Shown here piece after piece: positions 8,374 to 20,295 of a stretch of 23,124 bases of DNA (position 1 is its first letter; each line of letters opens with the position of its first letter). The DNA lies in IMG/VR virus record IMGVR_UViG_3300009329_000162, positions 1 through 23,124 of that record; one strand, 5' to 3'. The notes below the pieces were generated by a model. That model had not been told where the DNA came from, made no database searches, and was given only the letters and a program-made list of their open reading frames with translations. Made by a program: the position numbers and the translations under genes. The DNA is from a virus.

Positions 8374-9276
8374 ATGGCTGTATTGGTTACTTACGACGAT
8401 GGCAATAGGCTCGAAGATGTAATGCGGGCTGTTGTTCAGATGTCTCCTACCGACACTCCTTTTATGTCGGGAATAGGTAAAACCAAAGCATCCAACACTT
8501 TACACGAGTGGCCGGAAGATACCCTTGCAACGCGTAGTGATAACGCGGTGATAGAAGGAACAAGTTACTCCTACGGGACAAGAACTGCTCCTTCCAGGGT
8601 AAATAACTTTACTCAAATCTTTGAGAAGACGTTTCACGTTTCTTCTACAGAGCGTTGGGTAAAAGGCGCTGGTGTTGACGATCAGAAAGCTTATCAGAAG
8701 CAGAAAGCTATGTTAGAAATTGCCAATGACATTGAACATGCGTTGTTACGCGGTTCAAAGGCATCTGGCAATGCTACTGTGGCTCGAAGGCTTGCTGGGG
8801 CGATCAATTTCGTTACCACTAATGCTACGGCTGTAGCTTCGGGGACAAAACTTACTGAATCATTTTTTAATGGTTTAGCAGAGCTTTGTTGGACGCAGGG
8901 CGGGAACCCTGACGAAGTTTACGTTGGAGCGAGGTTAAAGAGGATCATATCCTCTTATACCGCTGGAGGCACCAAAAATACAGAACTCGATGATAAGCGC
9001 CTTACGAATGCTGTTGATGTCTATGAGTCAGACTTCGGTCTTGTAAAGATTTTCAAGGCCAGGGACATGGTAACAGGTGCCGTTGCGGAATCTCTTCTTA
9101 TGATTGAGAATAAGAAGTTTAAGATGGCAATTGGTGAACCTATCCGTGAAATCCCAGATGTTGCTCAAGATGGACACGGTACGAAAGGTGTAATTAGAGG
9201 CGAGTTAACTCTCGAAGCTCTTGCTGAAAGGCACAACGCGAAAGCGACAGGTCTTTCACAGACTTTCGTAGTATAG
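8374..9276 (+). CDS. Major capsid protein (SU10-like, DUF5309 family)
   Basis: This 300-residue protein shows the pattern of SU10-type HK97-fold capsid proteins: DGNRLEDVMRAVVQMSPTDT (9-28) near the N-terminus, TPFMSGIG (28-35), LHEWPEDTLA (43-52), FTQIFEKTFHVSSTERWV (79-96) and DIEHALLRGSKASG (119-132), with the GAINFVTTNAT stretch (142-152) that starts the middle domain. The protein forms the icosahedral shell. GAAAGGAGGAAA precedes ATG 8374, one of the strongest ribosome sites in the window, as expected for the most abundant product. A terminator follows 6 bases after the stop. The length is typical, so no delta-domain seems fused to it. Confidence 0.88.
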   Translation: MAVLVTYDDGNRLEDVMRAVVQMSPTDTPFMSGIGKTKASNTLHEWPEDTLATRSDNAVIEGTSYSYGTRTAPSRVNNFTQIFEKTFHVSSTERWVKGAGVDDQKAYQKQKAMLEIANDIEHALLRGSKASGNATVARRLAGAINFVTTNATAVASGTKLTESFFNGLAELCWTQGGNPDEVYVGARLKRIISSYTAGGTKNTELDDKRLTNAVDVYESDFGLVKIFKARDMVTGAVAESLLMIENKKFKMAIGEPIREIPDVAQDGHGTKGVIRGELTLEALAERHNAKATGLSQTFVV

Positions 9277-9281
9277 ATTGG

Positions 9282-9325
9282 GCAGGGGAGGAGACCGGAA
9301 CTTCTCCCCTGCACTTATTTTTAAT
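9282..9325 (+). terminator. Strong intrinsic terminator after the capsid gene
   Basis: GCAGGGGAGGAG (9282-9293) pairs with CTTCTCCCCTGC (9301-9312), a 12-bp stem with one G-U pair around a 7-base loop, followed by ACTTATTTTTAATT. It would cut transcript levels for the genes downstream unless an antiterminator or partial read-through operates. No promoter is obvious just after it. Confidence 0.8.
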
Positions 9326-9338
9326 TGGGGGAATAGAA

Positions 9339-9773
9339 ATGTTAGATACAAAACCTTGCGTTACGCAGGATGATGTTATTTGGCGTATGGTAAATGAAGG
9401 CTACGCTATGGAAGAGATAAAGCGTAAACATGCCGGTAATATTAAAATTATACTTTTTTGTCTATCTGATACATCTGCTGAAGCGCATTATTTCCCTATT
9501 TTTTACAGTGATAATTTAGAGGATGTTTGTAATAGATATTCTGATTTATTTCCTATTGAACTTGAGACGTGCATTAAAGAGGTTCAAGCAATAAATCAGA
9601 ATCTTTATCACGAAAATGCCATGAGCAAGGAACGCCTTAATATGGCAAAACTCAAAATTCCTTTGACGCTATATAAGATTTTAGATGCCTTTGATGAAGA
9701 ATTTTGGCAATTGACATCAAAGAAAGTCAAATGGCTCCAAAAATATTTTAACAAATTTAAGGTGGGGAAATGA
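9339..9773 (+). CDS. Hypothetical protein (144 residues)
   Basis: I do not recognise this gene. The product begins MLDTKPCVTQDDVIWRMV and reads as mixed alpha/beta at the N-terminus (1-60), with a Cys-containing hydrophobic strand (IKIILFCLS, 35-43). The C-terminal half is helical and Lys-rich (100-144). No signal peptide or membrane span is seen. A GGGGGAA ribosome site precedes ATG 9339. Its stop overlaps the next start as ATGA (9770-9773), so the two are likely coupled. It is the first gene behind the capsid terminator. A structural, head-completion or regulatory role is possible. Confidence 0.65.
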   Translation: MLDTKPCVTQDDVIWRMVNEGYAMEEIKRKHAGNIKIILFCLSDTSAEAHYFPIFYSDNLEDVCNRYSDLFPIELETCIKEVQAINQNLYHENAMSKERLNMAKLKIPLTLYKILDAFDEEFWQLTSKKVKWLQKYFNKFKVGK

Positions 9774-10006
9774 AAAATTGTAAAGCTTGGAAACTTTTAG
9801 AGGATCATTGGTTGATAAAGGCGTTAAAAAAACAGGGATTTGTAATTATTCATAAAAGCAAACTATCAGAGGAGACAAAAAAATGGCTAATAGAAAACAA
9901 AGTGAAAGCGGAAATTGGGGAGGGCCAGGCTGCCCAGGGGGACGTAAAATCAGAAGCAAAGGAAAAGGAAGAGGGCTTGGAAGAGGTAAAGGAAAAGGCC
10001 CAATAG
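9770..10006 (+). CDS. Small Lys/Glu-rich protein with an A7 slippery site
   Basis: The 78-residue 0-frame product starts MKNCKAWKLLEDHWLIKALK and turns into a charged Lys/Glu/Ala tail (45-78). The first 38 codons lie before the slippery run at 9877-9883. After that point the -1 frame also encodes a plausible Gly-rich protein. If ribosomes slip there, the first 38 residues would join the 55-residue Gly-rich frame to give 93 residues. The first domain is unrecognised. The start overlaps the previous gene by four bases. Confidence 0.55.
   Translation: MKNCKAWKLLEDHWLIKALKKQGFVIIHKSKLSEETKKWLIENKVKAEIGEGQAAQGDVKSEAKEKEEGLEEVKEKAQ
9877..9883 (+). promoter_or_regulatory. In-phase A AAA AAA slippery heptamer
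   Basis: In the frame of the gene starting at 9770 the sequence reads ACA AAA AAA TGG, so the run is in the X-XXY-YYZ phase used for -1 frameshifting. A -1 slip would continue at ATG 9883. AGGAG (9870-9874) is just upstream. It is closer than the usual stimulatory spacing, and it could instead be the ribosome site for the ATG at 9883. Confidence 0.4.
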
Positions 10007-10050
10007 GTGTTCCAATTGGAAAAAAGCAAGGCTTTACCATTTGGGGATAG
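9883..10050 (+). CDS. Gly/Lys-rich small protein in the overlapping -1 frame
   Basis: ATG 9883 opens a 55-residue frame in the -1 phase relative to the 9770 gene and overlaps it by 124 bases. The product is MANRKQSESGNWGG, then a basic Gly-rich segment (GKGRGLGRGKGKGPIG, 27-42), then VPIGKK and FTIWG at the end. It has an AGGAG site 8 bases before the ATG. It fills the region up to 10050, with only 33 bases to the next gene, which supports a real gene. The basic Gly-rich segment could bind nucleic acid or be a disordered linker. It could be made alone or as a frameshift fusion. No family is recognised. Confidence 0.5.
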   Translation: MANRKQSESGNWGGPGCPGGRKIRSKGKGRGLGRGKGKGPIGVPIGKKQGFTIWG

Positions 10051-10083
10051 AGCAGGTTAAAACGGTGGCGGGAAGGATAAAAA

Positions 10084-12456
10084 ATGCTAAAGATTAACAA
10101 TAAGGAATATGGATTAGCGCTTAATTTTATTTGTAGAGACGAAGAAGATACTCTTTTGAAAATGCTGGAATCTATCCAAGATGTAGGTTTTGATGAGGTA
10201 ATCTGCGGATGGACAGGCTCTAACCCTAAAACAAAAGAGATTCTTGATAAATTTAAGGTTGCTGTTTATAAGTTTGATTGGGTGAATGATTTTTCAAAGG
10301 CTCGAAATTTTGTTAAGGATAAAACTAAATCAGAATACATAATGTGGCTTGATTCTGATGATATTCTTCAAAAAGGACATTTAATTAAGAAGGTTTGTGA
10401 GGCTGAATTTTCAAAAGATTCTATGCTTGGAGCAATATGGTTTAGGTATGATTATGATTTTGATAAAGACGGTAATTGTGTAATGCAATTTTGGAGAGAA
10501 AGAGTTGTTAGAAAAGATTGGTTTGATTGGCGGGGGGCATTACACGAGACTTTAATACAGAAGCATTTGTGCCATCATTGCCTTGAGACAGATATTTCGA
10601 TAAAACATAATACAACGACTGAACGTATCCAAGACGGAGCTATGCGAAATCTCAATATTATTATAGCAAAATACAAAGAAGAAATTGGTAAGGGAGCTGT
10701 GGATCCGAGAGTCATATATGATTTAGCCCGCAGTCTTGCTGCCATAGGGCATAAAACAGAAGCAATAACAAAATATTTTGATTTTATTCGCCAGACTGGA
10801 AATGATGATGATAGATTTGAAGCTTATATTAGAATGGGCAAAATTTATCGAGATCAGCGTTTTTACGGAGAGGCCCGTAGAGCTGATTTAATGGCTCAAG
10901 GCCTTCGTCCTACATGGCCCGATTCTTATCTTGGATTGGCTCAAACTGCCTATTGTGAAGAAAAATGGGATGAAGTTATTACTTATACAGAATTAGCAAG
11001 CCTTTTAAAGCCTCCAGTAGGTATTATGCCGATAGACCCAATGGAATACGAAGCAAAGCCTCTATTATGGCTTCAACGTGCTTTATGTATGAAATCTTAT
11101 GTAAAACCCGGCAATGAAGCAAAAAGCCTTATAAATAGAGCATATGAAATAGCCCAAAAGGCTTTGAGATTTTATCCTTCTAATCAATGGCTTAAAGATT
11201 GCATAGGAAGTATGGAAGAGGCACAAAAGCATCTTTTGATTGAAGAGGCAGCTTTGGCAGTTGTTGAGTGGATGAAGGAAAATAAAAAGAGTGAAAATAT
11301 CCCCAAATTTATAGACCTTTTACCTGATATAGATAGGACTCATCCGTCATTGGTAAGGATTAAAAATGAATATTCAGCAAAGTCTTCTTCAAATCGTATA
11401 GTTATAATGTGCGGGCCTACAGCGGAACCCTGGTCGCCTTTAACTGCAAAGACAGGCGTAGGCGGGAGCGAAGAAGCAGTTATACACCTTGCGCAGGAAC
11501 TTACGAAATTAGGCTGGATAGTTGATGTATATAATGAATGTGAAAAGGCGGGGAATTTTGACGGAGTAAATTATAATTATTGGGAGAGTTATGACAAAAA
11601 AGCTCCTTGCGCTATTTTTATTGGATGGCGCCTTAATGAATTTGTCGATGTTGCTCCAGAAAATGCTTATAAAGTTTTATGGCTGCATGATGTTCAGAAA
11701 GAAGAATGGTATGCTCCAATGCGTACAGTGAAGATAAATAAGCTTTTTGTTTTATCTAAATGGCACCGCACAACTGTTGATTGGATACCTGATAACCAAG
11801 TCCTTATCACGGCAAATGGTATAGACCCATCTCATTTTAATATAGGCCTTTCTCGTAATCCCTTAAAGTGTATATATGCCTCTTCTCCTGATCGCGGCCT
11901 TGATTGTTTATTGGATATGTGGCCGAAGATTAGAGAAAAGGTACCTGAAGCAACTTTGCATATTTTTTATGGATTTACAAGGACTTATGATAAATGCCAC
12001 GAAAACGATATACGCTGGAAACAAATGAAAGAGCGTATCCTTAAAAAGCTCAATCAACCGGGAATATTTTATCGCGGGATGATAGGGCATAAGGATTTAG
12101 CGAATGAATTTTTAACATCGGGCACCTGGTTGTATCCAACTGAATTTACTGAAATAAGTTGTATTACTGCTATGAAGATACAAGCTGCGGGGGTTATCCC
12201 TGTCTGCACAAATGTTGCTGCTTTAGATGAGACTGTGCAGTATGGAATTAAGATAAATTGCAGTGATATTTATACGAATATAGAAAAACAAAAGAAATTT
12301 ATTGAGGCCACTGTATATTCTCTTACAAACGGATTTAATAGAGAAGAGATGATTAAATGGGCTAAAGAAAAATTTAGCTGGCAGAATGTAGCAAAAAAAT
12401 GGGATGTATTTTTTAGAGAGGCTTTGGTATGCGAAAACTCATCTTCCCAGATATAG
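10084..12456 (+). CDS. GT2-TPR-GT4 bifunctional glycosyltransferase fusion
   Basis: This 790-residue protein combines two sugar transferases. Residues 1-130 form a GT-A (family 2) domain: LALNFICRDEED (11-22), FSKARNFV (70-77) and the nucleotide-sugar/metal motif DSDD (90-93). Residues about 200-400 are helical with TPR-like repeats and include YDLARSLAAIGH and EAYIRMGKIYRDQRFYGEA. Residues 438-760 look like GT-B family 4: IVIMCG (439-444), GVGGSEEAV (458-466), ANGIDPSHF around 577, and an acidic C-terminal block TEFTEISCITAMKIQAAG around 686-703 in the donor-binding position. It probably adds two sugars to one acceptor. AAGGA precedes ATG 10084. Sugar donor and acceptor are unknown. Confidence 0.82.
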   Translation: MLKINNKEYGLALNFICRDEEDTLLKMLESIQDVGFDEVICGWTGSNPKTKEILDKFKVAVYKFDWVNDFSKARNFVKDKTKSEYIMWLDSDDILQKGHLIKKVCEAEFSKDSMLGAIWFRYDYDFDKDGNCVMQFWRERVVRKDWFDWRGALHETLIQKHLCHHCLETDISIKHNTTTERIQDGAMRNLNIIIAKYKEEIGKGAVDPRVIYDLARSLAAIGHKTEAITKYFDFIRQTGNDDDRFEAYIRMGKIYRDQRFYGEARRADLMAQGLRPTWPDSYLGLAQTAYCEEKWDEVITYTELASLLKPPVGIMPIDPMEYEAKPLLWLQRALCMKSYVKPGNEAKSLINRAYEIAQKALRFYPSNQWLKDCIGSMEEAQKHLLIEEAALAVVEWMKENKKSENIPKFIDLLPDIDRTHPSLVRIKNEYSAKSSSNRIVIMCGPTAEPWSPLTAKTGVGGSEEAVIHLAQELTKLGWIVDVYNECEKAGNFDGVNYNYWESYDKKAPCAIFIGWRLNEFVDVAPENAYKVLWLHDVQKEEWYAPMRTVKINKLFVLSKWHRTTVDWIPDNQVLITANGIDPSHFNIGLSRNPLKCIYASSPDRGLDCLLDMWPKIREKVPEATLHIFYGFTRTYDKCHENDIRWKQMKERILKKLNQPGIFYRGMIGHKDLANEFLTSGTWLYPTEFTEISCITAMKIQAAGVIPVCTNVAALDETVQYGIKINCSDIYTNIEKQKKFIEATVYSLTNGFNREEMIKWAKEKFSWQNVAKKWDVFFREALVCENSSSQI

Positions 12457-13250
12457 GCGAATTAGGATGGGCTTTGTATTTAGCTGCGTATATAAAATGG
12501 CTTCAAAAATATACAGATGATGTAGTCTGTGTCATGACAACGCCTGATAGATTTTGTTTGTACGAATGTGATGTAAGACTCCTTCCATTAGATTTTATAG
12601 ATAAATATAAAGATTTTCCGCAAGATTGCTTTGGGAGATATGGAATAGGTGATGCAGAGCTCAAGAGTTATTTTAAAGATAAGTTACCAGAAGGATATAT
12701 TATTCCTGAATATTTTTCTTTTGGGTTAAATAGATTTTTTGATGGTAAGGCTATTTTTGAATCATATAAAGTTTCATCTAATATTTTAATATTCCCAAGA
12801 AATAGAAAACAATTTCATCATTCTTTTAGGAATTTACCCGAAAGATTTTACGTTGATTTAATAAATATCCTTTGTCGTAAATTCTCTGACAAAAGAATTG
12901 TATCAATAGGGAGTAAAGAGGGCGCCCACGATATTATTTTAAACCATAGAAATTATTATAATAAAATCGGGCAAACCTCAATTCAGGATATTATTGATTT
13001 ATGTGATTATTCTGTAGCAGCTATAGGAGGAACTTCGGCTCCTCCTAAAATAACGCTTTTACAAAAAGTCCCTACATTTATTATAGGGCACGAGATAGAT
13101 AGATTTACTAAAAAAGAAAATTGGAATAATACAGATGTATGTTTTTGGGAGATTAAGAAGGAAGAATATTCTACTTTTAATGATTTTCGATGTATAGATA
13201 AAATAGTGGAGTTTGTGCAAAATGCGAATCAGCGCAGGCCTTATAACTAA
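12429..13250 (+). CDS. GT9-like glycosyltransferase
   Basis: This 273-residue protein fits the GT-B fold of heptosyltransferase-type (family 9) enzymes, in shortened form. The N-terminal Rossmann part begins LIFPDIGELGWALYLAAYIK (4-23). The C-terminal half carries ILIFPRNRK (119-127), RIVSIGSKEGAH (155-166), TSIQDIIDLCDYSVAAIGG (184-202) and the TSAPPKITLLQKVPTFIIG block (203-221), the usual donor-binding region. Typical family members are 320-350 residues, so this one is trimmed, and catalysis is inferred from fold pattern. It overlaps the preceding fusion gene by 28 bases and the next gene by 29. It could act on the same glycan. Confidence 0.62.
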   Translation: MRKLIFPDIGELGWALYLAAYIKWLQKYTDDVVCVMTTPDRFCLYECDVRLLPLDFIDKYKDFPQDCFGRYGIGDAELKSYFKDKLPEGYIIPEYFSFGLNRFFDGKAIFESYKVSSNILIFPRNRKQFHHSFRNLPERFYVDLINILCRKFSDKRIVSIGSKEGAHDIILNHRNYYNKIGQTSIQDIIDLCDYSVAAIGGTSAPPKITLLQKVPTFIIGHEIDRFTKKENWNNTDVCFWEIKKEEYSTFNDFRCIDKIVEFVQNANQRRPYN

Positions 13251-14637
13251 AAACGAAGATTTTTGTTTGGAGCAATCTATCCTATCTTATATAGATTATG
13301 TGGATAAGCTTGTCGTTATAGATGACAATTCTACGGATAATACTATTTCAATTATACAAACATTACAGAGAAGCTATCCAAAAATAGAACTTATTCAGGG
13401 AACATATAATGGGGATAAAGGTAAACAGCGCCAGGAATATCTTAAGAGAATGGATGGAGATTGGATTTTTTGTTTTGACGGAGACGAGGTCTTATCACGA
13501 AAATCTATAGAATGGCTTAAAAATTTCATAACTTCATGCCCAGATAATGATGTTGTTATAGGAGAGCATTTACATTTCTGGAAAGACTTTAGGCATGTTA
13601 TTAAAGGGCACGTTTGGCAGCAGGACCTACAGCGCGTATTTAGAAATATCCCGGGCCTTACTTATAAATATTGCCATCATTCCGTATGTTATGAAGATGG
13701 AAGAAATTTATATTCAGAGGCGAGTAAGAATGGCCGAGTAGGTATAGAGAAAAATGAATTTAAGATTTTCCACTATGCTTATTGTAAACCATCTAAAAAC
13801 ATACGAGACAAAATAGCATATTATATAAAAAGAGATAATGTAAATTATTCAGTTGATGATTTTTCTTATTTCAGCGGGAAGTTTGATTATCAGAGATATG
13901 GTAAGTATGGATTTAAGTTTTGCGGAAACTATAAAGATAACTTGAATTATTATTGGCAGGATGAAGTCGTAAAATGCGAAGGTAGTCATCCAAGAATAAT
14001 GAAAAATCATCCTTTATGGGAAAGGCTGCATAATAGAGTTATTGAGATAAATAAGTACATGGAGGAGCATTGGCAATTTAATAATCATTTAAGCTATCCG
14101 CATCATCAGAGAAGATTAGAAGAAACTGCTAAAGTATGCGAAGGTAAAACTGTCGAAGTAGGATGCGCTAATGGCGATTCGATAATGTATATGCAGAAGT
14201 TTAATCCACAGGCTGCATTTTTTGGAGTTGAGCCTACAGATTGGGGTTATAGAGAAGCAAGGAAAAAGGTAGGGACCCTATTGGTTTTTCAAGACTATGC
14301 AGAGAATCTTTCTTTCACAGATAAGAGTTTTGATACTGTATTACTGTCAGAAATAATCGAACATGTATTAGACCCAAAATTTATTTTAGATGAGGCTTTT
14401 AGAGTGGCAAAGAAAAGAGTTGTAATAACAACTCCTGCAAAACCTCATCCGGACCCAGATCATAAAAGAGTTATAACAATAAATGATATGAGAGGCCTTC
14501 TTAAAGATTATTGCGATGAAGTTGAAATAAAAGGATTGACTTTCGAAGGATGGGGTAATCCCCCAAAGGTAGCAAATAAGGAAGAGGATATACATTTTCA
14601 AATTGTAATAGCTAATTGTAGAAAGGTTGCAGAATAA
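13222..14637 (+). CDS. GT2 glycosyltransferase-methyltransferase fusion
   Basis: ATG 13222 gives 471 residues. An in-frame TTG at 13213 is less likely because it sits only a base or two behind the GGAG site. Residues 1-100 are a family 2 domain: AGLITKNEDFCLEQS (5-19), VVIDDNSTDNT (31-41) and FDGDE (85-89) for the metal-bound donor sugar. Residues about 280-470 are a class I SAM methyltransferase: TVEVGCANGDS (310-320) is the SAM loop, FFGVEP (about 334-339) is the strand-2 acidic motif, and SFDTVLLSEIIEHVLDP fits motifs IV-V. A sugar may be added and then methylated. It sits inside the overlapping glycosyltransferase run. The acceptor is unknown. Confidence 0.83.
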   Translation: MRISAGLITKNEDFCLEQSILSYIDYVDKLVVIDDNSTDNTISIIQTLQRSYPKIELIQGTYNGDKGKQRQEYLKRMDGDWIFCFDGDEVLSRKSIEWLKNFITSCPDNDVVIGEHLHFWKDFRHVIKGHVWQQDLQRVFRNIPGLTYKYCHHSVCYEDGRNLYSEASKNGRVGIEKNEFKIFHYAYCKPSKNIRDKIAYYIKRDNVNYSVDDFSYFSGKFDYQRYGKYGFKFCGNYKDNLNYYWQDEVVKCEGSHPRIMKNHPLWERLHNRVIEINKYMEEHWQFNNHLSYPHHQRRLEETAKVCEGKTVEVGCANGDSIMYMQKFNPQAAFFGVEPTDWGYREARKKVGTLLVFQDYAENLSFTDKSFDTVLLSEIIEHVLDPKFILDEAFRVAKKRVVITTPAKPHPDPDHKRVITINDMRGLLKDYCDEVEIKGLTFEGWGNPPKVANKEEDIHFQIVIANCRKVAE

Positions 14638-14638
14638 A

Positions 14639-15439
14639 ATGCTGGAATATCCTGTGCACATAGAATATGAAGTTACAAATCGTTGTAATATGTCTTGTAT
14701 TATGTGCCCTCATAAAATTATGAAGCGTAGACATGGCGATATGAGTATGGGAACCCTTATGAAAGTATCTGATGAATTGAGGGGCCATGCAAAGACTTCG
14801 TATTTACATCAAATAGGCGAACCTCTTATGAATAAGCATATTATTGATATGATAAATTATGTTGCGAGCGCAAATATCAGGTCAAGTATTTCTACCAACT
14901 GTATGCTTCTTGATGAAGAGATGACAGATAGGATTTTAAATTCAAAACTTGAAGAGATTATACTTTGTGTAGATAGTCTCAAAGAGAAGACTTATCAGGA
15001 AATTCGTAAAGGCGGAGATTTATATACGGTTTTGTGGAATATAAGGAATTTTTTAGCCGAGAAGAAACACCGTAAATCAAACATATATGTTCAAATTCAA
15101 ATGATAAAAATGCAGGAAAATAAGGATGAATGGGAAACTCTCCCAAAAAGTTTTCAAGATGAAGCAGTAAATAATATCTGGATGAAAGAGTATTCTACTT
15201 TTGCTGGCCATATTATAAAAGGAGAATCTGTTTCTCCTCGTAGATTTACTTGTTCAAAACCTTTTACGCATTTAACTATTCAATGGAATGGAGATGCTGT
15301 TGTATGTTGTAGAGATTATGATGGTGAGGCCGTAATGGGCAACGTGAATAATCAATCTATAAAAGACATATGGCACTCAGATAGATACAACAAGTTCAGA
15401 AAGACATTTAGAGAATCAAAATTTTGTAAGGAGTGCTGA
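14639..15439 (+). CDS. Radical SAM / SPASM-like protein
   Basis: From ATG 14639 (preferred over in-frame TTG 14627, which has no room for a ribosome site) the product is 266 residues. TNRCNMSCIMCPH (13-25) carries the CxxxCxxC motif (C16, C20, C23) that holds the 4Fe-4S cluster used to cleave SAM. The barrel follows, with KEEIILCVDSL-like strands and RKGGDLYTVLWNIRNFL. The C-terminal 65 residues hold extra Cys around 204, VVCC (221-224) and FCKEC (262-266), as in SPASM-type auxiliary cluster domains. Such proteins modify peptides, sugars or other small molecules by radical chemistry. A phage copy within a glycan cassette suggests sugar or glycoconjugate modification, but the substrate is unknown. 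It overlaps the next gene by one base. Confidence 0.85.
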   Translation: MLEYPVHIEYEVTNRCNMSCIMCPHKIMKRRHGDMSMGTLMKVSDELRGHAKTSYLHQIGEPLMNKHIIDMINYVASANIRSSISTNCMLLDEEMTDRILNSKLEEIILCVDSLKEKTYQEIRKGGDLYTVLWNIRNFLAEKKHRKSNIYVQIQMIKMQENKDEWETLPKSFQDEAVNNIWMKEYSTFAGHIIKGESVSPRRFTCSKPFTHLTIQWNGDAVVCCRDYDGEAVMGNVNNQSIKDIWHSDRYNKFRKTFRESKFCKEC

Positions 15440-16008
15440 TGAAGATAGGCGTATTTATACCATATTGTATACAGCTTAATGAATATCTTGGCGCAGTTGT
15501 AAAACAATTTAGCCAATGGGACGAAATTGTTATTATGAATTATGATTTTAAGAAAGAACGCCAAGAAGACTGTCGTAATAAAGGAATTGCGAAACTTGAA
15601 CATTGCGATTATGTGTTTACTGTAGATGCTGATGAATTGATACTTGAAGAAGGCCAAAGGAAGATTATTGAAAGGGCAACAAAGGAAAAAGCCGATGTGG
15701 TTTTTTGCCCGGTTATTCATTATACGCAGGATCTAAATTATAAATATAAGATGGCGGAACATATGCCTGTAATATTACTTAATCCTAAAAAAGTTAAATT
15801 TTATGAAACAAGATGCGTTAGGTTTAATGAACCTATTTATTGCAAAGATATTTTTGTTCATCATTTAGGCTTTACTCATAGTAAAGAAACTATGAAATGG
15901 AAAAATAAAAATTATTGGAATATAGGTAACTTAAAGGAAGTTGAACAGATTATGGACAGGGAAAAAGAATTTTGTCAATTTCCAGAGGAGTTAAGAAATG
16001 CAATATGA
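15439..16008 (+). CDS. Short GT2-like glycosyltransferase
   Basis: This 189-residue protein begins MKIGVFIPYCIQLNEYLGAV and has the DADE donor/metal motif at 63-66, inside a family 2-like core (about 1-120). The usual family length is 230-300 or more, so it is short and lacks a long C-terminal acceptor part. ATG 15439 is preferred over GTG 15433, which overlaps the AAGGAG site. The start overlaps the stop of the radical SAM gene by one base. The H-rich segment DIFVHHLGFTHSKETM (about 137-152) resembles those of short GT2 proteins found in other polysaccharide clusters. The sugar is unknown. Confidence 0.68.
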   Translation: MKIGVFIPYCIQLNEYLGAVVKQFSQWDEIVIMNYDFKKERQEDCRNKGIAKLEHCDYVFTVDADELILEEGQRKIIERATKEKADVVFCPVIHYTQDLNYKYKMAEHMPVILLNPKKVKFYETRCVRFNEPIYCKDIFVHHLGFTHSKETMKWKNKNYWNIGNLKEVEQIMDREKEFCQFPEELRNAI

Positions 16009-16525
16009 ATCCCAAGAAATACAATCCTTGCTTGATATTGTAGAGCCCGAGAAGATTATAAAAAAGGATAGTTTAAATAAAGAGCAAAATTTTAAACAGG
16101 AAGAGGCAACTAAACCGATAGAAAAAGAACCTCGAGCAAAGAACGTATTTGACTATTTTGATATTGAAAATCCTAAAGAGCTTGATTTTTTAACTCTTGA
16201 GAAAGTTTATAAGATTACCGAAATGATAAAAGGGGATAAAGGCGATAATGCCTATATTTTTGATGTCTTGCATGAGCTCGGAAAATGTATAAACAATATT
16301 ACGGACCCTATATCTAAAGTAGATAAGCTGTATGAAGCTGTAAGAAGCCTTCATTTAAGAAAGCCAGAGGGCCAGGGATTTTTAGAATATTTATTAGGAG
16401 AAGGTATTATCAATATGGATATTTTAGCAGATGAAGCTGCAAAGACAGGTAATTGGGTTCCTTATTTAAAATTTGCTGATAAGAAAAAGGTGGAAAGTGG
16501 CGCTAAAAATAGCAGTGATTTATGA
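15998..16525 (+). CDS. Hypothetical protein (175 residues)
   Basis: I do not recognise this protein. It starts MQYESQEIQSLLDIVEPEK, has a Lys/Glu/Gln-rich, probably disordered stretch (18-47), and then a more ordered helical core (50-165) with VFDVLHELGK-like and FLEYLLGEGIINMDILAD segments. GAGGAG precedes ATG 15998, and the gene overlaps the glycosyltransferase end by 11 bases. It closes the cargo block and may be part of it, or may be the first of the next group. No signal peptide or membrane span is seen. Confidence 0.6.
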   Translation: MQYESQEIQSLLDIVEPEKIIKKDSLNKEQNFKQEEATKPIEKEPRAKNVFDYFDIENPKELDFLTLEKVYKITEMIKGDKGDNAYIFDVLHELGKCINNITDPISKVDKLYEAVRSLHLRKPEGQGFLEYLLGEGIINMDILADEAAKTGNWVPYLKFADKKKVESGAKNSSDL

Positions 16526-16664
16526 GGATTCAACTATATTTGCGCAATATAATCCAAAGGATTTTCGCAAGTTGCTCAAATGCTATTTTAATGAATATAA
16601 AGATTTAGATAAGGCATTAGATATGATAGAAAATGACCTTAAAAAAGAAGTTGCAAGGAGATAG
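16497..16664 (+). CDS. Small hypothetical protein (55 residues)
   Basis: A 55-residue frame from GTG 16497 begins (M)ALKIAVIYEDSTIFAQYNPK and ends in a Lys/Glu helix (DKALDMIENDLKKE). An AAGG/AGGTGG ribosome site lies just upstream. The frame also opens further upstream at TTG 16473, but that start has no clear site. It overlaps the previous gene by 29 bases, and its stop is two bases before the next gene. Its tight position supports a real gene. Function is unknown. Confidence 0.5.
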   Translation: MALKIAVIYEDSTIFAQYNPKDFRKLLKCYFNEYKDLDKALDMIENDLKKEVARR

Positions 16665-16666
16665 AA

Positions 16667-17107
16667 ATGAGTTATGAGTCGGAAATTCTACAAAAAATTA
16701 CTCGGCAGGATTTAAACATAATTGGCATACGAGCGCTTTTATATGGCTTAAATAGCACAACTGCTGTTCTTCTTAAGGTTGATTCTAATGGTGTTTTACA
16801 TATACAGCAAATAGGGGCAGCAGCTATTACAAGTGGGCGAAAAGCTATTGCTACAGCTGGAACTCGCGAGAGATTAGTAGCTAATTCAACCCCTTGTTTT
16901 AGGGTAGATGTGTATGCTGATTTAGGTAATACAAATCCTGTAGTAATAGGAGGTTCTGGTGTCATTGCAGCTTCAGGTTCTCAAGAAGGAATAGTTTTGA
17001 TACCCGGCAACGATCCTGTAACAATTTATATTGATGATGTAACAAAACTATGGGCTGATGTTCAGACAAATGGTGATGCGGTCTGTTTTAACTATTATAC
17101 ATATTAA
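16667..17107 (+). CDS. Virion structural protein, beta-rich
   Basis: The 146-residue protein starts MSYESEILQKITRQDLNIIG. From about residue 75 it shows a beta pattern common in small phage virion proteins: NPVVIGGSGVIAASGSQEGI (89-108), LIPGNDPVTIYIDDVTKLWA (110-129) and a closing VCFNYYTY. Such proteins often sit on capsids or link fibres, where a Gly-Ser loop followed by a proline-glycine turn is frequent. The exact place is unknown. It is directly followed by the tail fibre gene, so a fibre-base or decoration role is a fair guess. AAGGAG precedes ATG 16667. Confidence 0.6.
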   Translation: MSYESEILQKITRQDLNIIGIRALLYGLNSTTAVLLKVDSNGVLHIQQIGAAAITSGRKAIATAGTRERLVANSTPCFRVDVYADLGNTNPVVIGGSGVIAASGSQEGIVLIPGNDPVTIYIDDVTKLWADVQTNGDAVCFNYYTY

Positions 17108-17115
17108 AGGTAAAA

Positions 17116-20100
17116 ATGGCTATTCAAGTTAAAGATGATGGTGTTAGTCAAGGTTATGTGGCCAGATTAGATTTTCTTAATGGCCCCAACGTAACCAGAA
17201 GTGGGATAGAAGCAGATATAGATTTTGCTTTCTTGGCTACTGACTATCTTAAAATTGATACTTCCAATAACCCTCTTACCGGTAACCTTGAAATAGAGAA
17301 AGCTGACCCAGAAATCCGCCTTACTGATATAGGTGATAATAATTGTACAAGAATAGTTCGTTCTGATGTCTCTGCCTTAGCTGCAAGATATAATACTGTC
17401 TTAAAACCTACCGAAGCCTTTTCATATTTAAGTGTTTCTGCCGGTAGTAAATATGTAGACACCACTATAGCAACTGATATTGGAGCTGGTGATTTTACCA
17501 TAATGGCTTGGCAAAAAGGAACTACTCAAAACTATGGTATTACTCAAGCGGATAACGATGCTCCGTATTCAAGTTCATTTATTTTTCCTTATAGTTCAAA
17601 TGAGTTTTGGTATAACGGCACAACTGTCGCTTCTGGTGTAGATTTTGATGATGGAAATTGGCATCATTGGGCAGTGGTTTGGGATGAAAGTGAAAGTACT
17701 TTTGAAGCATTTGTTGCAGGGGTTAGTGTTGGGACAAGTGGTGTAGTTAGTAGAGATGTTGCTATTACAACGATAAAAATAGGTGCGAGTGGTGTTGGTG
17801 CAGGTATTTCAAATATGCAATGGGATGAGGTAGGTTTTTGGCAGGAGAAATTATCTGCTAATGATATATCCGATGCTTATAATGCTGGTGCTGGATTGTA
17901 TCTCGATCCTGCTGATAACTGGCCTACTGACGGAGATTCTATTGGAAGTAATCTTATTGCTCTTTATCACTTTGACGAAGGAGAAGGGGCTACTGCCGCA
18001 GATGCTTCTGGTAATGAAAATACAGCAACTTTAGAGGGCGGTGCAAGTTGGGCAGCAGGAATTGTACCTGCACCAGCGGGAGCTGATGTTGAAGTTTTAG
18101 TTTGGTCAAGCCAAGATGGTGTGGCAGTTGATGAAGAAGGTATTCAAACTTTTGGAGACTCTAATGGACAAACAAGAATAGATGGTAGTATTGTTCATTT
18201 ACAGGAGGGTGGAGTCAATATATTGTCAATAGATGGAGGGTATGTAGGTGTAAAAACTCCAACTCCGCGTGCTCCATTAGAAGTTTATGGTGGTGATGGT
18301 GTATTAGACTTAGGCTCTTATAGAAATTTATTCTTAACTGCCGTTGCGGGTTCAAATTATTATCCAGGATTCGGTATGCAATTAGGAAATGGTAATATAG
18401 GGATGATTATAAGTTCTGATGGTACAACTTTAATTCAGCGTAGGGATGCAGATTTTGGTAATTCTTTAGGTATAGCTTATTTTAATAATAGTGGTAATAC
18501 AGGCTTCAGAGAAAGTGCTCCAGAAACTTTGGTAGAATTAACCCATACAGCACCTTATATAACTCTGCATAATTCTACTCATGAAGATATAGATGGAGGC
18601 AGAGAAAGTAAACTTATAGCAAAAGGACATCAGTCAGGAGCAGAGGAAACTACATTAGGCAGTCAAGTTTTTAGCCACGATGGTGTTGCAAATGACCAGA
18701 AAGGTAAGTGGGAGTTAAATTTAAATGCTACCGCTGACGGGAATAATCCAAGTAATGTAATTACTGCTTTGAGTAGTGGAAAAGTAGGAGTTAATATAAT
18801 TCCTAAATCCCTCCTACATGTATCACAAGACGGAACAACCCCAGCTGCTGCATTTCTTTCAGGGACTGAACCAGTTATACATGTAACTGGTGCTGGACAG
18901 AATATTATCCAAACAGTTTCTCAAGCATCAAGTAATGCTACGCAAAGACCAATCTTACAATTTAGAAAAGCAAGAAATACTCTTGCAAGCCCAGAGGCTG
19001 TTGTAGATGATGATTTATTAGCTTCGTTTAGTGCAGGTGGTTATGATGGAGATGAGATTGTTTTTTCAGCAGAAATTGACTTTTATGTAGATGGGGCAGT
19101 AGCAAATGATACAGTTCCACAGAGAATATCTTTTGTTACAGGAACAAATGCAGGTAATAGAACTGAGAGAATGGTAGTTAAGAATGATGGTAAGGTAGGT
19201 ATCGGAGAACCAGACCCAGATGATTTGTTTCATATAACGAAAAATCAAGCTGCTATTACAAGAATTGATATTGAGAATACAGATGCAAACGGAGGGCAAA
19301 ATTTTAGATTTATTGGGCCAGCTGGCGCAGCAGTAGCTGGTAATTATTATAATAATGCTACTTTACATTATAAAATAGCTTCTTATTTAGCTAATTCTAC
19401 ACTGGGATTATATACTGAAGATACTGTTGCATTAACAATAGATGAAAATCAATATGTCGGCATAGGACAACCAATTCCCACCGCCAAAACCCACATAAAA
19501 GCAGACGCTAATGGTGTATGTTTAAGACTTGAAGAAACAGGAGCAGGAACTGAATACTATGATATAAAAGTAGACTCAAGTGGTGATTTAAACTTTTATA
19601 GTGATGGTGGAACGCAAGCACTGGAATTAAAAGATGTAGGAGCTTATGTCAACGTAAGTAGTAGATTAGGTCATATTGGGGATAGTGATACCTATTTTGA
19701 TTTTACTACTAATGATATTGAGATGTATGCGGGGGGCGAGAAACTCCTACGACTCTATGCCGCAGGTGTGCAGGATTATGTAAAACTGGGCGATGGTGGT
19801 GATGTAGATATATACATAGGTGGTGAGATATTTATAGATTCAGGGAATAATACTATCTACTTCTATGATAATTTAGATCTTACTAATCAAGCAAATGCTA
19901 CAAGATTTTCTTATGTTAAAAGTAAACCTGTATATTGGTTTGATGCATCACCAATTGCTCTTATTACTGTAGCTGATGGAGAAGTTATTACAGATATGTG
20001 GGTGGAGGTTGTTACTTTATTTGATGGTGCTGCAATGACATTTACACTTGGTGATGGAAATGACGCTAATGGGTTTATGGATGAAACAGGCGCAGGCGGG

Positions 20101-20295
20101 CCTATCAATTTAGGAGCAGTAGGTTACTATGGACAAGACCACGATACAAGAGGAGATTATCTATACGATGCAGTAAATGGACATGATAGAGATAAAGTTT
20201 ATGCAGGTGTAGATACAATAGATGCTGTATTTAATTTTGGTGGGGCAGCTCAAGGGGAACTTGTTGTTTATGCAGCGGTAACTAAAATAAAATAG
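17116..20295 (+). CDS. Tail fibre / receptor-binding protein with LamG domain and VGIG repeats
   Basis: This 1059-residue protein probably contacts the host surface. Residues 105-265 read as a LamG/concanavalin-like sugar-binding domain (DFTIMAWQKG at 126-135, GNWHHWAVVWDE at 180-191, MQWDEVGFWQEKLSANDI at 234-251). Residues 280-315 (LIALYHFDEGEG, then DASGNENT) resemble the first strands of a second LamG domain that is not completed. Five fibre repeats of VGIG-type follow at about 376-390, 461-475, 555-569, 692-706 and 779-793 (for example GKVGIGEPDPDDLFHI). Residues 935-1059 form a compact C-terminal domain (VADGEVITDMWVEVVTLFDG; FTLGDGND). I see no intramolecular chaperone. Trimerisation is likely but not shown. 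Confidence 0.82.
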   Translation: MAIQVKDDGVSQGYVARLDFLNGPNVTRSGIEADIDFAFLATDYLKIDTSNNPLTGNLEIEKADPEIRLTDIGDNNCTRIVRSDVSALAARYNTVLKPTEAFSYLSVSAGSKYVDTTIATDIGAGDFTIMAWQKGTTQNYGITQADNDAPYSSSFIFPYSSNEFWYNGTTVASGVDFDDGNWHHWAVVWDESESTFEAFVAGVSVGTSGVVSRDVAITTIKIGASGVGAGISNMQWDEVGFWQEKLSANDISDAYNAGAGLYLDPADNWPTDGDSIGSNLIALYHFDEGEGATAADASGNENTATLEGGASWAAGIVPAPAGADVEVLVWSSQDGVAVDEEGIQTFGDSNGQTRIDGSIVHLQEGGVNILSIDGGYVGVKTPTPRAPLEVYGGDGVLDLGSYRNLFLTAVAGSNYYPGFGMQLGNGNIGMIISSDGTTLIQRRDADFGNSLGIAYFNNSGNTGFRESAPETLVELTHTAPYITLHNSTHEDIDGGRESKLIAKGHQSGAEETTLGSQVFSHDGVANDQKGKWELNLNATADGNNPSNVITALSSGKVGVNIIPKSLLHVSQDGTTPAAAFLSGTEPVIHVTGAGQNIIQTVSQASSNATQRPILQFRKARNTLASPEAVVDDDLLASFSAGGYDGDEIVFSAEIDFYVDGAVANDTVPQRISFVTGTNAGNRTERMVVKNDGKVGIGEPDPDDLFHITKNQAAITRIDIENTDANGGQNFRFIGPAGAAVAGNYYNNATLHYKIASYLANSTLGLYTEDTVALTIDENQYVGIGQPIPTAKTHIKADANGVCLRLEETGAGTEYYDIKVDSSGDLNFYSDGGTQALELKDVGAYVNVSSRLGHIGDSDTYFDFTTNDIEMYAGGEKLLRLYAAGVQDYVKLGDGGDVDIYIGGEIFIDSGNNTIYFYDNLDLTNQANATRFSYVKSKPVYWFDASPIALITVADGEVITDMWVEVVTLFDGAAMTFTLGDGNDANGFMDETGAGGPINLGAVGYYGQDHDTRGDYLYDAVNGHDRDKVYAGVDTIDAVFNFGGAAQGELVVYAAVTKIK

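Follow-up and report, generated by a model that had tools for sequence, protein, structure and literature searches.

In the mycobacteriophages Che8, Corndog and Myrna, phage-encoded glycosyltransferases (GTs) glycosylate capsid and tail tube proteins (Freeman et al. 2023, as cited in PMC12363180 and PMC12619734). GmaR of Listeria combines a GT2 domain with tetratricopeptide repeats (TPR) and puts N-acetylglucosamine (GlcNAc) on flagellin, a role in flagellin recognition having been proposed for the repeats (PMC9638930), and the TPR-GT-B enzyme FlmG binds flagellin through its TPR domain (PMC7591256). Pelagimyophages carry a GT-rich variable region with radical S-adenosylmethionine (SAM) cassettes, which has been read as changing host lipopolysaccharide (LPS) (PMC7029224). 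The present analysis concerns the complete IMG/VR virus record IMGVR_UViG_3300009329_000162 (23,124 bases; hereafter the window), and in particular a GT2-TPR-GT4 fusion gene and the four cassette genes behind it, situated downstream of the gene for the major capsid protein (MCP). The locus probably encodes a late-expressed system that glycosylates a virion protein and has interchangeable tailoring enzymes.

An alignment of eight fusions was used as the scan query, and fusion relatives were found encoded in 340 viral stretches versus 13 bacterial-genome loci, 11 of which matched the GT4 part only. Fixed host chromosome segments without phage links, which an earlier sequence-only reading of the window had named as evidence against itself, were thus not what the scan returned. 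Of the 340 viral stretches, the best 80 were kept. Collapsing at 95% identity gave 89 fusion clusters, which lean toward close relatives because of this choice, and 85 of them had room upstream. An MCP gene was located upstream on the same strand within 7 kb in 78 of the 85 clusters and within 1.3 kb in 71; a small protein of the family represented in the window by g9339 was encoded within 1.3 kb upstream in 75, and the exact triad of MCP, g9339-type protein and fusion was present in 64. These counts, as well as those below for the 11-locus MCP scan, for contigs with g9339 but no fusion, and for cassettes, membrane segments and turnover, rest on a purpose-built picker of open reading frames (ORFs) and home-made hidden Markov models (HMMs), not on curated models.

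A scan started from the MCP, and so free of the bias that a fusion query brings, gave 80 loci, 49 with an MCP identity to the query of at least 44% and 31 below this value. Contigs were counted if 1 kb or more of downstream sequence was available, and 9/49 and 3/31 were set aside as too short. The fusion was found within 6 kb downstream in 38/40 contigs of the first group versus 1/28 of the second, and one of the nine contigs set aside (L140) still shows the fusion start. In a separate MCP scan, which gave 11 loci, the fusion or its split halves were seen in nine (L013, L014, L016–L019, L021–L023); neither was seen in L015, with 3.1 kb of downstream sequence, or in L020, with 0.35 kb. Among annotated relatives, MW202718 from Manatee Spring comes closest: its MCP is 71% identical, its small protein 36% and its fusion 43%, the three genes are ordered as in the window, and the cassette genes that follow them differ from those of the window. 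A scan with a single MCP query returned only distant MCPs (29–35% identity in eight full ones; that of L010 was in pieces), and tblastn with 21 window proteins at 1e-3 matched only the MCP in those contigs. No relative was found in a single-query scan with the portal.

The matches in bacterial genomes that cover most of the fusion came from a Rhodothermales locus (matches spanning residues 11 to 777) and from a 4.4-kb contig, L101, binned to a Ca. Taylorbacteria metagenome-assembled genome (residues 47–773). Contig L101 carries a g9339-type small protein gene together with the GT fusion, and its binning is a bare hint that some phages with this unit infect Patescibacteria.

Pfam assigns a GT2 domain to the fusion (8.7e-13), along with weak GT4 and TPR matches. 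The closest solved relatives of the GT2 part by sequence are GmaR (8.1e-15) and SunS in the PDB, and the profile search reaches TPR proteins and OGT via the TPR part. The predicted model (pLDDT 91.1, pTM 0.57), the domains of which were named from Pfam and fold matches, features GT2 (GT-A) strands and helices at residues 1–175, helices at 179–430 and a mixed GT-B part at 438–790, and superimposes on SunS (7msp_B) over 289 columns at 2.9 Å. The best Foldseek matches were SunS/ThuS on the GT2-TPR half and OGT/SPINDLY (SPY) on the TPR-GT-B half; the GT-B part alone was closest to MshA (Z 30.6, 315 residues, 2.5 Å), with further GT4-type chains also ranking near the top. Counted from alignment columns, the metal-binding DXD residues D90/D92/D93 of GT2 are invariant in 123/123 aligned fusions, and the GT4 glutamate E690 is kept in all 118 aligned fusions with a letter at that column. 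As judged from sequence and model, the GT2-TPR half is similar to two protein glycosyltransferases, SunS and GmaR. The named GT2-TPR and TPR-GT-B relatives target proteins or peptides, SunS and OGT being assigned so by record names. Two active sites flanking a TPR were not found described in literature searches conducted mostly without subscription papers and preprints. In contigs L021 (9751–12925) and L023 (11331–13761), two genes take the place of the fusion, one of GT2-TPR type and one GT4-like, and in L021 a methyltransferase gene sits between them; the halves may therefore act as two chains.

The five overlapping cassette genes reported from sequence alone at 10084–16008 are confirmed as same-strand ORFs at these positions, and the domain calls made for four of them hold by Pfam: the fusion, gene 3 (GT2 7.1e-17 and methyltransferase 4.6e-11), gene 4 and gene 5. 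The call of gene 2 as GT9-like is left without support, since this protein has no match in Pfam (E 0.1), PHROGs (0.01) or NCBIfam, and nothing credible was obtained in the PDB profile search (best E 0.1). The sole relative of gene 2 in the examined gene models comes from one other contig (L014/L028); in L014 its gene is the second one after the fusion. Gene 5 has a 50% identical relative in L012, which immediately follows a methyltransferase downstream of the fusion.

In 53 clusters, 3 kb of downstream sequence was available, and 41 of these carry at least one gene of the GT, methyltransferase, epimerase, LicD or radical SAM kind ahead of the tail genes. Cassette-family HMMs, seeded from Pfam-labelled genes, detected GT2 in 31 clusters, GT4 in 17, methyltransferase in 16, epimerase in 8, radical SAM in 6 (including the window itself) and LicD in 5. 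The cassette of L022 comprises methyltransferases, a GDP-mannose-dehydratase-like protein, GT2, radical SAM/SPASM, GT and PIG-L deacetylase, a predicted full sugar-building set, and in L019 and L039 the fusion stands alone, with no further cassette genes. An HNH endonuclease gene is located directly behind the GT fusion of L022 (14062–14538), and its product is possibly a homing agent aiding cassette exchange. In 38 pairs with an MCP identity of at least 70%, duplicates of the same contig included, 37% of the cassette genes were common to both members on average, and 14 pairs shared none; by this comparison, the tailoring genes turn over faster than the backbone. The GC-content of the window is 0.32–0.34 across 12–16.5 kb versus 0.36–0.44 in all but one other 1.5-kb block, which is in line with a later arrival of accessory genes.

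The radical SAM protein (gene 4) matches Radical_SAM (1.6e-14) and SPASM (7.5e-18) in Pfam and contains the CX3CX2C cysteines C20/C24/C27 and the SPASM/twitch cysteines C209/C227/C267/C270. The nearest PDB relative is BtrN (1.7e-16), and the cysteine pattern is BtrN-like; BtrN is a 2-deoxy-scyllo-inosamine dehydrogenase, the substrate of which is an aminocyclitol. The protein is below the cut-off on every NCBIfam model, with SPASM maturases among the sub-cut-off matches. A single-protein radical SAM pattern scan of viral contigs found nothing, and tblastn against phages gave three distant matches only, at about 24% identity. Eight further radical SAM proteins, encoded on seven fusion-bearing contigs, are 17–23% identical to that of the window and have little in common with it beyond the CX3CX2C and GEP motifs. 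Separate recruitments of these genes are hence likelier, on sequence grounds, than one old gene. In L061 (13437–15312), two different radical SAM genes are adjacent in one cassette. The presence of radical SAM in such a cassette had been called unusual, which is true only in part: 6/53 clusters have it, counting the window, and pelagimyophage GT regions with radical SAM cassettes have been published (PMC7029224).

The genes of the window follow the order terminase, portal, scaffold-like, SU10-type MCP, two small genes, cassette, fibre-like, adaptor-like and stabilisation-like, the scaffold and stabilisation labels being taken from the order and names in MW202718. Virion genes lie on both sides of the cassette (MCP, portal, terminase and a weak SU10_adaptor). 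The coordinates are given in Table 1.

Table 1. Features of the capsid–cassette region of the window
Feature	Coordinates	Strand	Evidence
SU10-type MCP, genetic anchor of the unit	8374..9276	+	Pfam SU10_MCP 3.4e-72; 70-75% identity in nearest contigs
Terminator-like hairpin directly 3' of MCP	9282..9312	+	12 pairs, T-rich tail
g9339, conserved small protein between MCP and GT fusion	9339..9773	+	83 gene-model matches
GT2-TPR-GT4 fusion (gene 1), 790 aa, proposed two-sugar protein glycosyltransferase	10084..12456	+	Pfam, PDB profile, model, motif columns
Gene 2, cassette protein without family match, 273 aa	12429..13250	+	44% identical relative in L014
GT2-methyltransferase fusion, gene 3	13213..14637 (start 13222 equally likely)	+	Pfam
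Radical SAM/SPASM protein, gene 4	14627..15439 (start 14639 equally likely)	+	Pfam, BtrN match, cysteines
Short GT2-type protein, gene 5	15433..16008	+	Pfam 1.1e-6
Protein without assigned function overlapping the cassette end	15998..16525	+	10 gene-model matches
Large fibre-like protein with concanavalin A-like lectin domain	17116..20295	+	Laminin_G_3 1.2e-9

The capsid terminator placed by the sequence-only reading before the cassette was recovered as the hairpin immediately after the MCP stop. The 9200–16800 region contains 6 terminator-like sites versus 3.4 (sd 1.8) in shuffled sequence, and many relatives also have hairpins after the MCP gene, as detected with a looser script. The number of g9339 matches is that in the gene models of the fetched loci and takes in the window and duplicate loci. 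Its predicted structure is confident (pLDDT 89.6); a fold search gave no clear match (best BFVD E 0.07; best Z 2.9 over 68 residues), which does not establish a new fold. The protein also occurs without the GT fusion, in contigs L156, L158, L159 and L161, and is therefore not confined to the sugar system. Between g9339 and the fusion, a Gly/Lys/Arg-rich 55-codon ORF with a good ribosome site (9883–10047, + strand) overlaps a 78-codon ORF (9770–10006) in a different frame, and either could be real.

Each cassette ORF overlaps the next, a plausible ribosome site is present before most of them, and the alternative ATG starts 13222, 14639 and 15439 are as likely as the listed TTG/GTG starts. The ORF that overlaps gene 5 at the cassette end (10 matches in the fetched loci, a number that includes the window and two duplicates) seems, by this overlap, to tie the cassette to the fibre genes; the fibre-like protein itself is a possible acceptor or glycan reader. 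At the beginning of the window, on the strand opposite to the virion genes, a LIM-like zinc-ribbon and amidoligase protein (390–1628, Amidoligase_2 2.5e-9) adjoins a class II glutamine amidotransferase fragment (1–399, GATase_4 6.5e-8). These two genes possibly encode a peptide-tagging pair.

Building on gene content, linkage, turnover and domain similarity, we propose the following acceptor, sugars, order of steps and benefit. The MCP and neighbouring genes would be expressed late, and the TPR superhelix of the fusion would hold an exposed segment of a virion protein, the capsid protein being the first choice of acceptor and the small neighbouring protein or the fibre the second. The GT2 domain would attach the first sugar to a side chain and the GT4 domain would add the second one. 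The cassette GT2 enzymes could extend the glycan with further sugars, the methyltransferase could cap one sugar and the radical SAM/SPASM protein could oxidise or otherwise rearrange a sugar (or an acceptor residue). Reduced read-through past the MCP hairpin would keep the enzymes under capsid levels. Since the core enzyme remains linked to the capsid gene and the tailoring genes behind it are exchanged, related phages would carry different coats.

Decoration of virion proteins had been put forward from the sequence alone together with a change of the host surface, and it gains support from the contrast in MCP linkage between close and distant MCPs, from the likeness of the GT2-TPR half to protein glycosyltransferases and from the lack of membrane segments. 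Host surface remodelling, in which LPS, capsule or S-layer glycan would be altered to block superinfection or help progeny exit, is now less supported, and we retain it as an unlikely explanation. The cassette families include GT2, GT4, epimerase and LicD types, which are typical of surface polysaccharide loci. The cassettes are also situated near fibre genes, and the pelagimyophage GT regions have been interpreted in this way (PMC7029224). However, the core enzyme is like protein glycosyltransferases and linked to the capsid gene, and a hydropathy scan found no membrane segment in the five cassette proteins of the window and a borderline one in 7/174 labelled cassette proteins across relatives. 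GtrABC serotype conversion relies on a GtrA flippase and a membrane-bound GT on a temperate phage; GtrA was found in 0/27 records and integrase in 2/27, though the records may be fragments.

DNA hypermodification, with the GTs placing sugars on phage bases against restriction, appears the least probable of the explanations considered. Phage GTs do glycosylate DNA elsewhere (PMC12619734), and the MW202718 relative bears the depositor label beta4glucosyltransferase. No DNA glucosyltransferase is present among the best matches listed, either by sequence or by fold, and the TPR and the capsid linkage would be left unexplained. The thymidylate-synthase family, the usual source of hydroxymethyl bases, was found in 0/27 records, while the control was found in 9/14 genomes. 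These counts, together with those for GtrA and integrase, weaken both DNA modification and serotype conversion; the absences are weaker than they look because many of the 27 records may be fragments. Only marginally more plausible, and still very improbable, is a system resembling those for ribosomally synthesised and post-translationally modified peptides (RiPPs), in which radical SAM and its partners would act on a ribosomal peptide or other protein and the GTs would S- or O-glycosylate a peptide, not the virion. SunS glycosylates a peptide, according to its NCBIfam name, and SPASM maturases score among the NCBIfam matches of gene 4, below the cut-off; radical SAM, however, occurs in only 6/53 clusters, and the nearest solved relative is the aminocyclitol enzyme BtrN.

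Several observations weigh against virion-protein glycosylation as proposed here. Gene neighbourhood does not identify the target, and the acceptor is one that we infer. Contigs L120 and L152, with an MCP identity of at least 44%, are without the fusion near the MCP, in L012 and L014 the fusion lies about 6 kb from the MCP behind large genes, and MW202497 has GT genes between terminase and portal, an arrangement that fits a virion module but not a position always at the MCP. The usual GT4 motif is EX7E; in the fusions it is EX7K in 110/118 aligned sequences and EX7E in 5/118, so the GT4 step may differ. In addition, the placement of the domains is uncertain because of the low pTM of the model, and the fusion cannot be filed as SunS, since it scores 29.3 on the NCBIfam SunS model versus a cut-off of 350. 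The second Glu site corresponds to residue 698 of the fusion (codon 12175–12177), and Lys is also found there in most bacterial-genome GT4-half relatives; the EX7K fusions and these cellular relatives appear by sequence to form a GT4 subgroup with an altered motif.

A bolder version of virion-protein glycosylation is offered tentatively, as a possibility that we do not favour. According to it, the unit would be a lineage-defining capsid module in hundreds of uncultivated podovirus-like phages: a two-headed, TPR-centred GT, inherited with the capsid, would prime the capsid with a disaccharide, and a swap-in cassette, at times with an independently recruited radical SAM enzyme, would individualise the coat in a manner comparable to antigenic variation. 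Few cases of phage virion glycosylation are known so far. If the proposal is true, virion glycosylation would be usual in a large group of phages, sugar-coated virions could be recognised from genomes simply by the fusion beside the MCP, and a set of natural tailoring enzymes, among them radical SAM proteins, would be available to try on capsid glycans. It also raises the question of which pressure (defence, grazing, adsorption or stability) maintains a changing particle coat.

The comparison with known systems shows partial likenesses. The pelagimyophages likewise have, next to their tail genes, a variable region in which GTs and radical SAM genes occur, but no fixed core fusion tied to the capsid gene was found described in the accessible part of PMC7029224. 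SunS and ThuS S-glycosyltransferases share the GT2 and helical domains and are the top Foldseek matches of the fusion; they differ in their peptide substrate and, judging by chain lengths, their solved chains are without the GT4 half, and the NCBIfam score of the fusion is far below the SunS cut-off. GmaR has an N-terminal GT2 followed by TPR and is the best PDB sequence match; it lacks a GT-B domain, has linker and antirepressor domains further along and glycosylates flagellin (PMC9638930). FlmG and OGT have TPR followed by GT-B, and the FlmG TPR selects the protein acceptor; FlmG is without an N-terminal GT2 (PMC7591256). The GT-B part of the present fusion is nearest to GT4 enzymes such as MshA, which sets it apart from both. 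OGT, too, has no N-terminal GT2. The mycobacteriophage systems, compared by description only, likewise employ phage-encoded GTs, but no GT2-TPR-GT4 fusion beside the capsid gene was found described for them in the accessible texts; in the present unit the tailoring includes radical SAM. Literature searches on GT/capsid linkage or radical SAM cassettes, which covered few subscription papers or preprints, returned no description of this unit. Sugar-coated phage virions and GT-rich variable phage regions with radical SAM genes are already known; as far as these searches go, what is new is a capsid-bound GT2-TPR-GT4 family accompanied by interchangeable tailoring genes.

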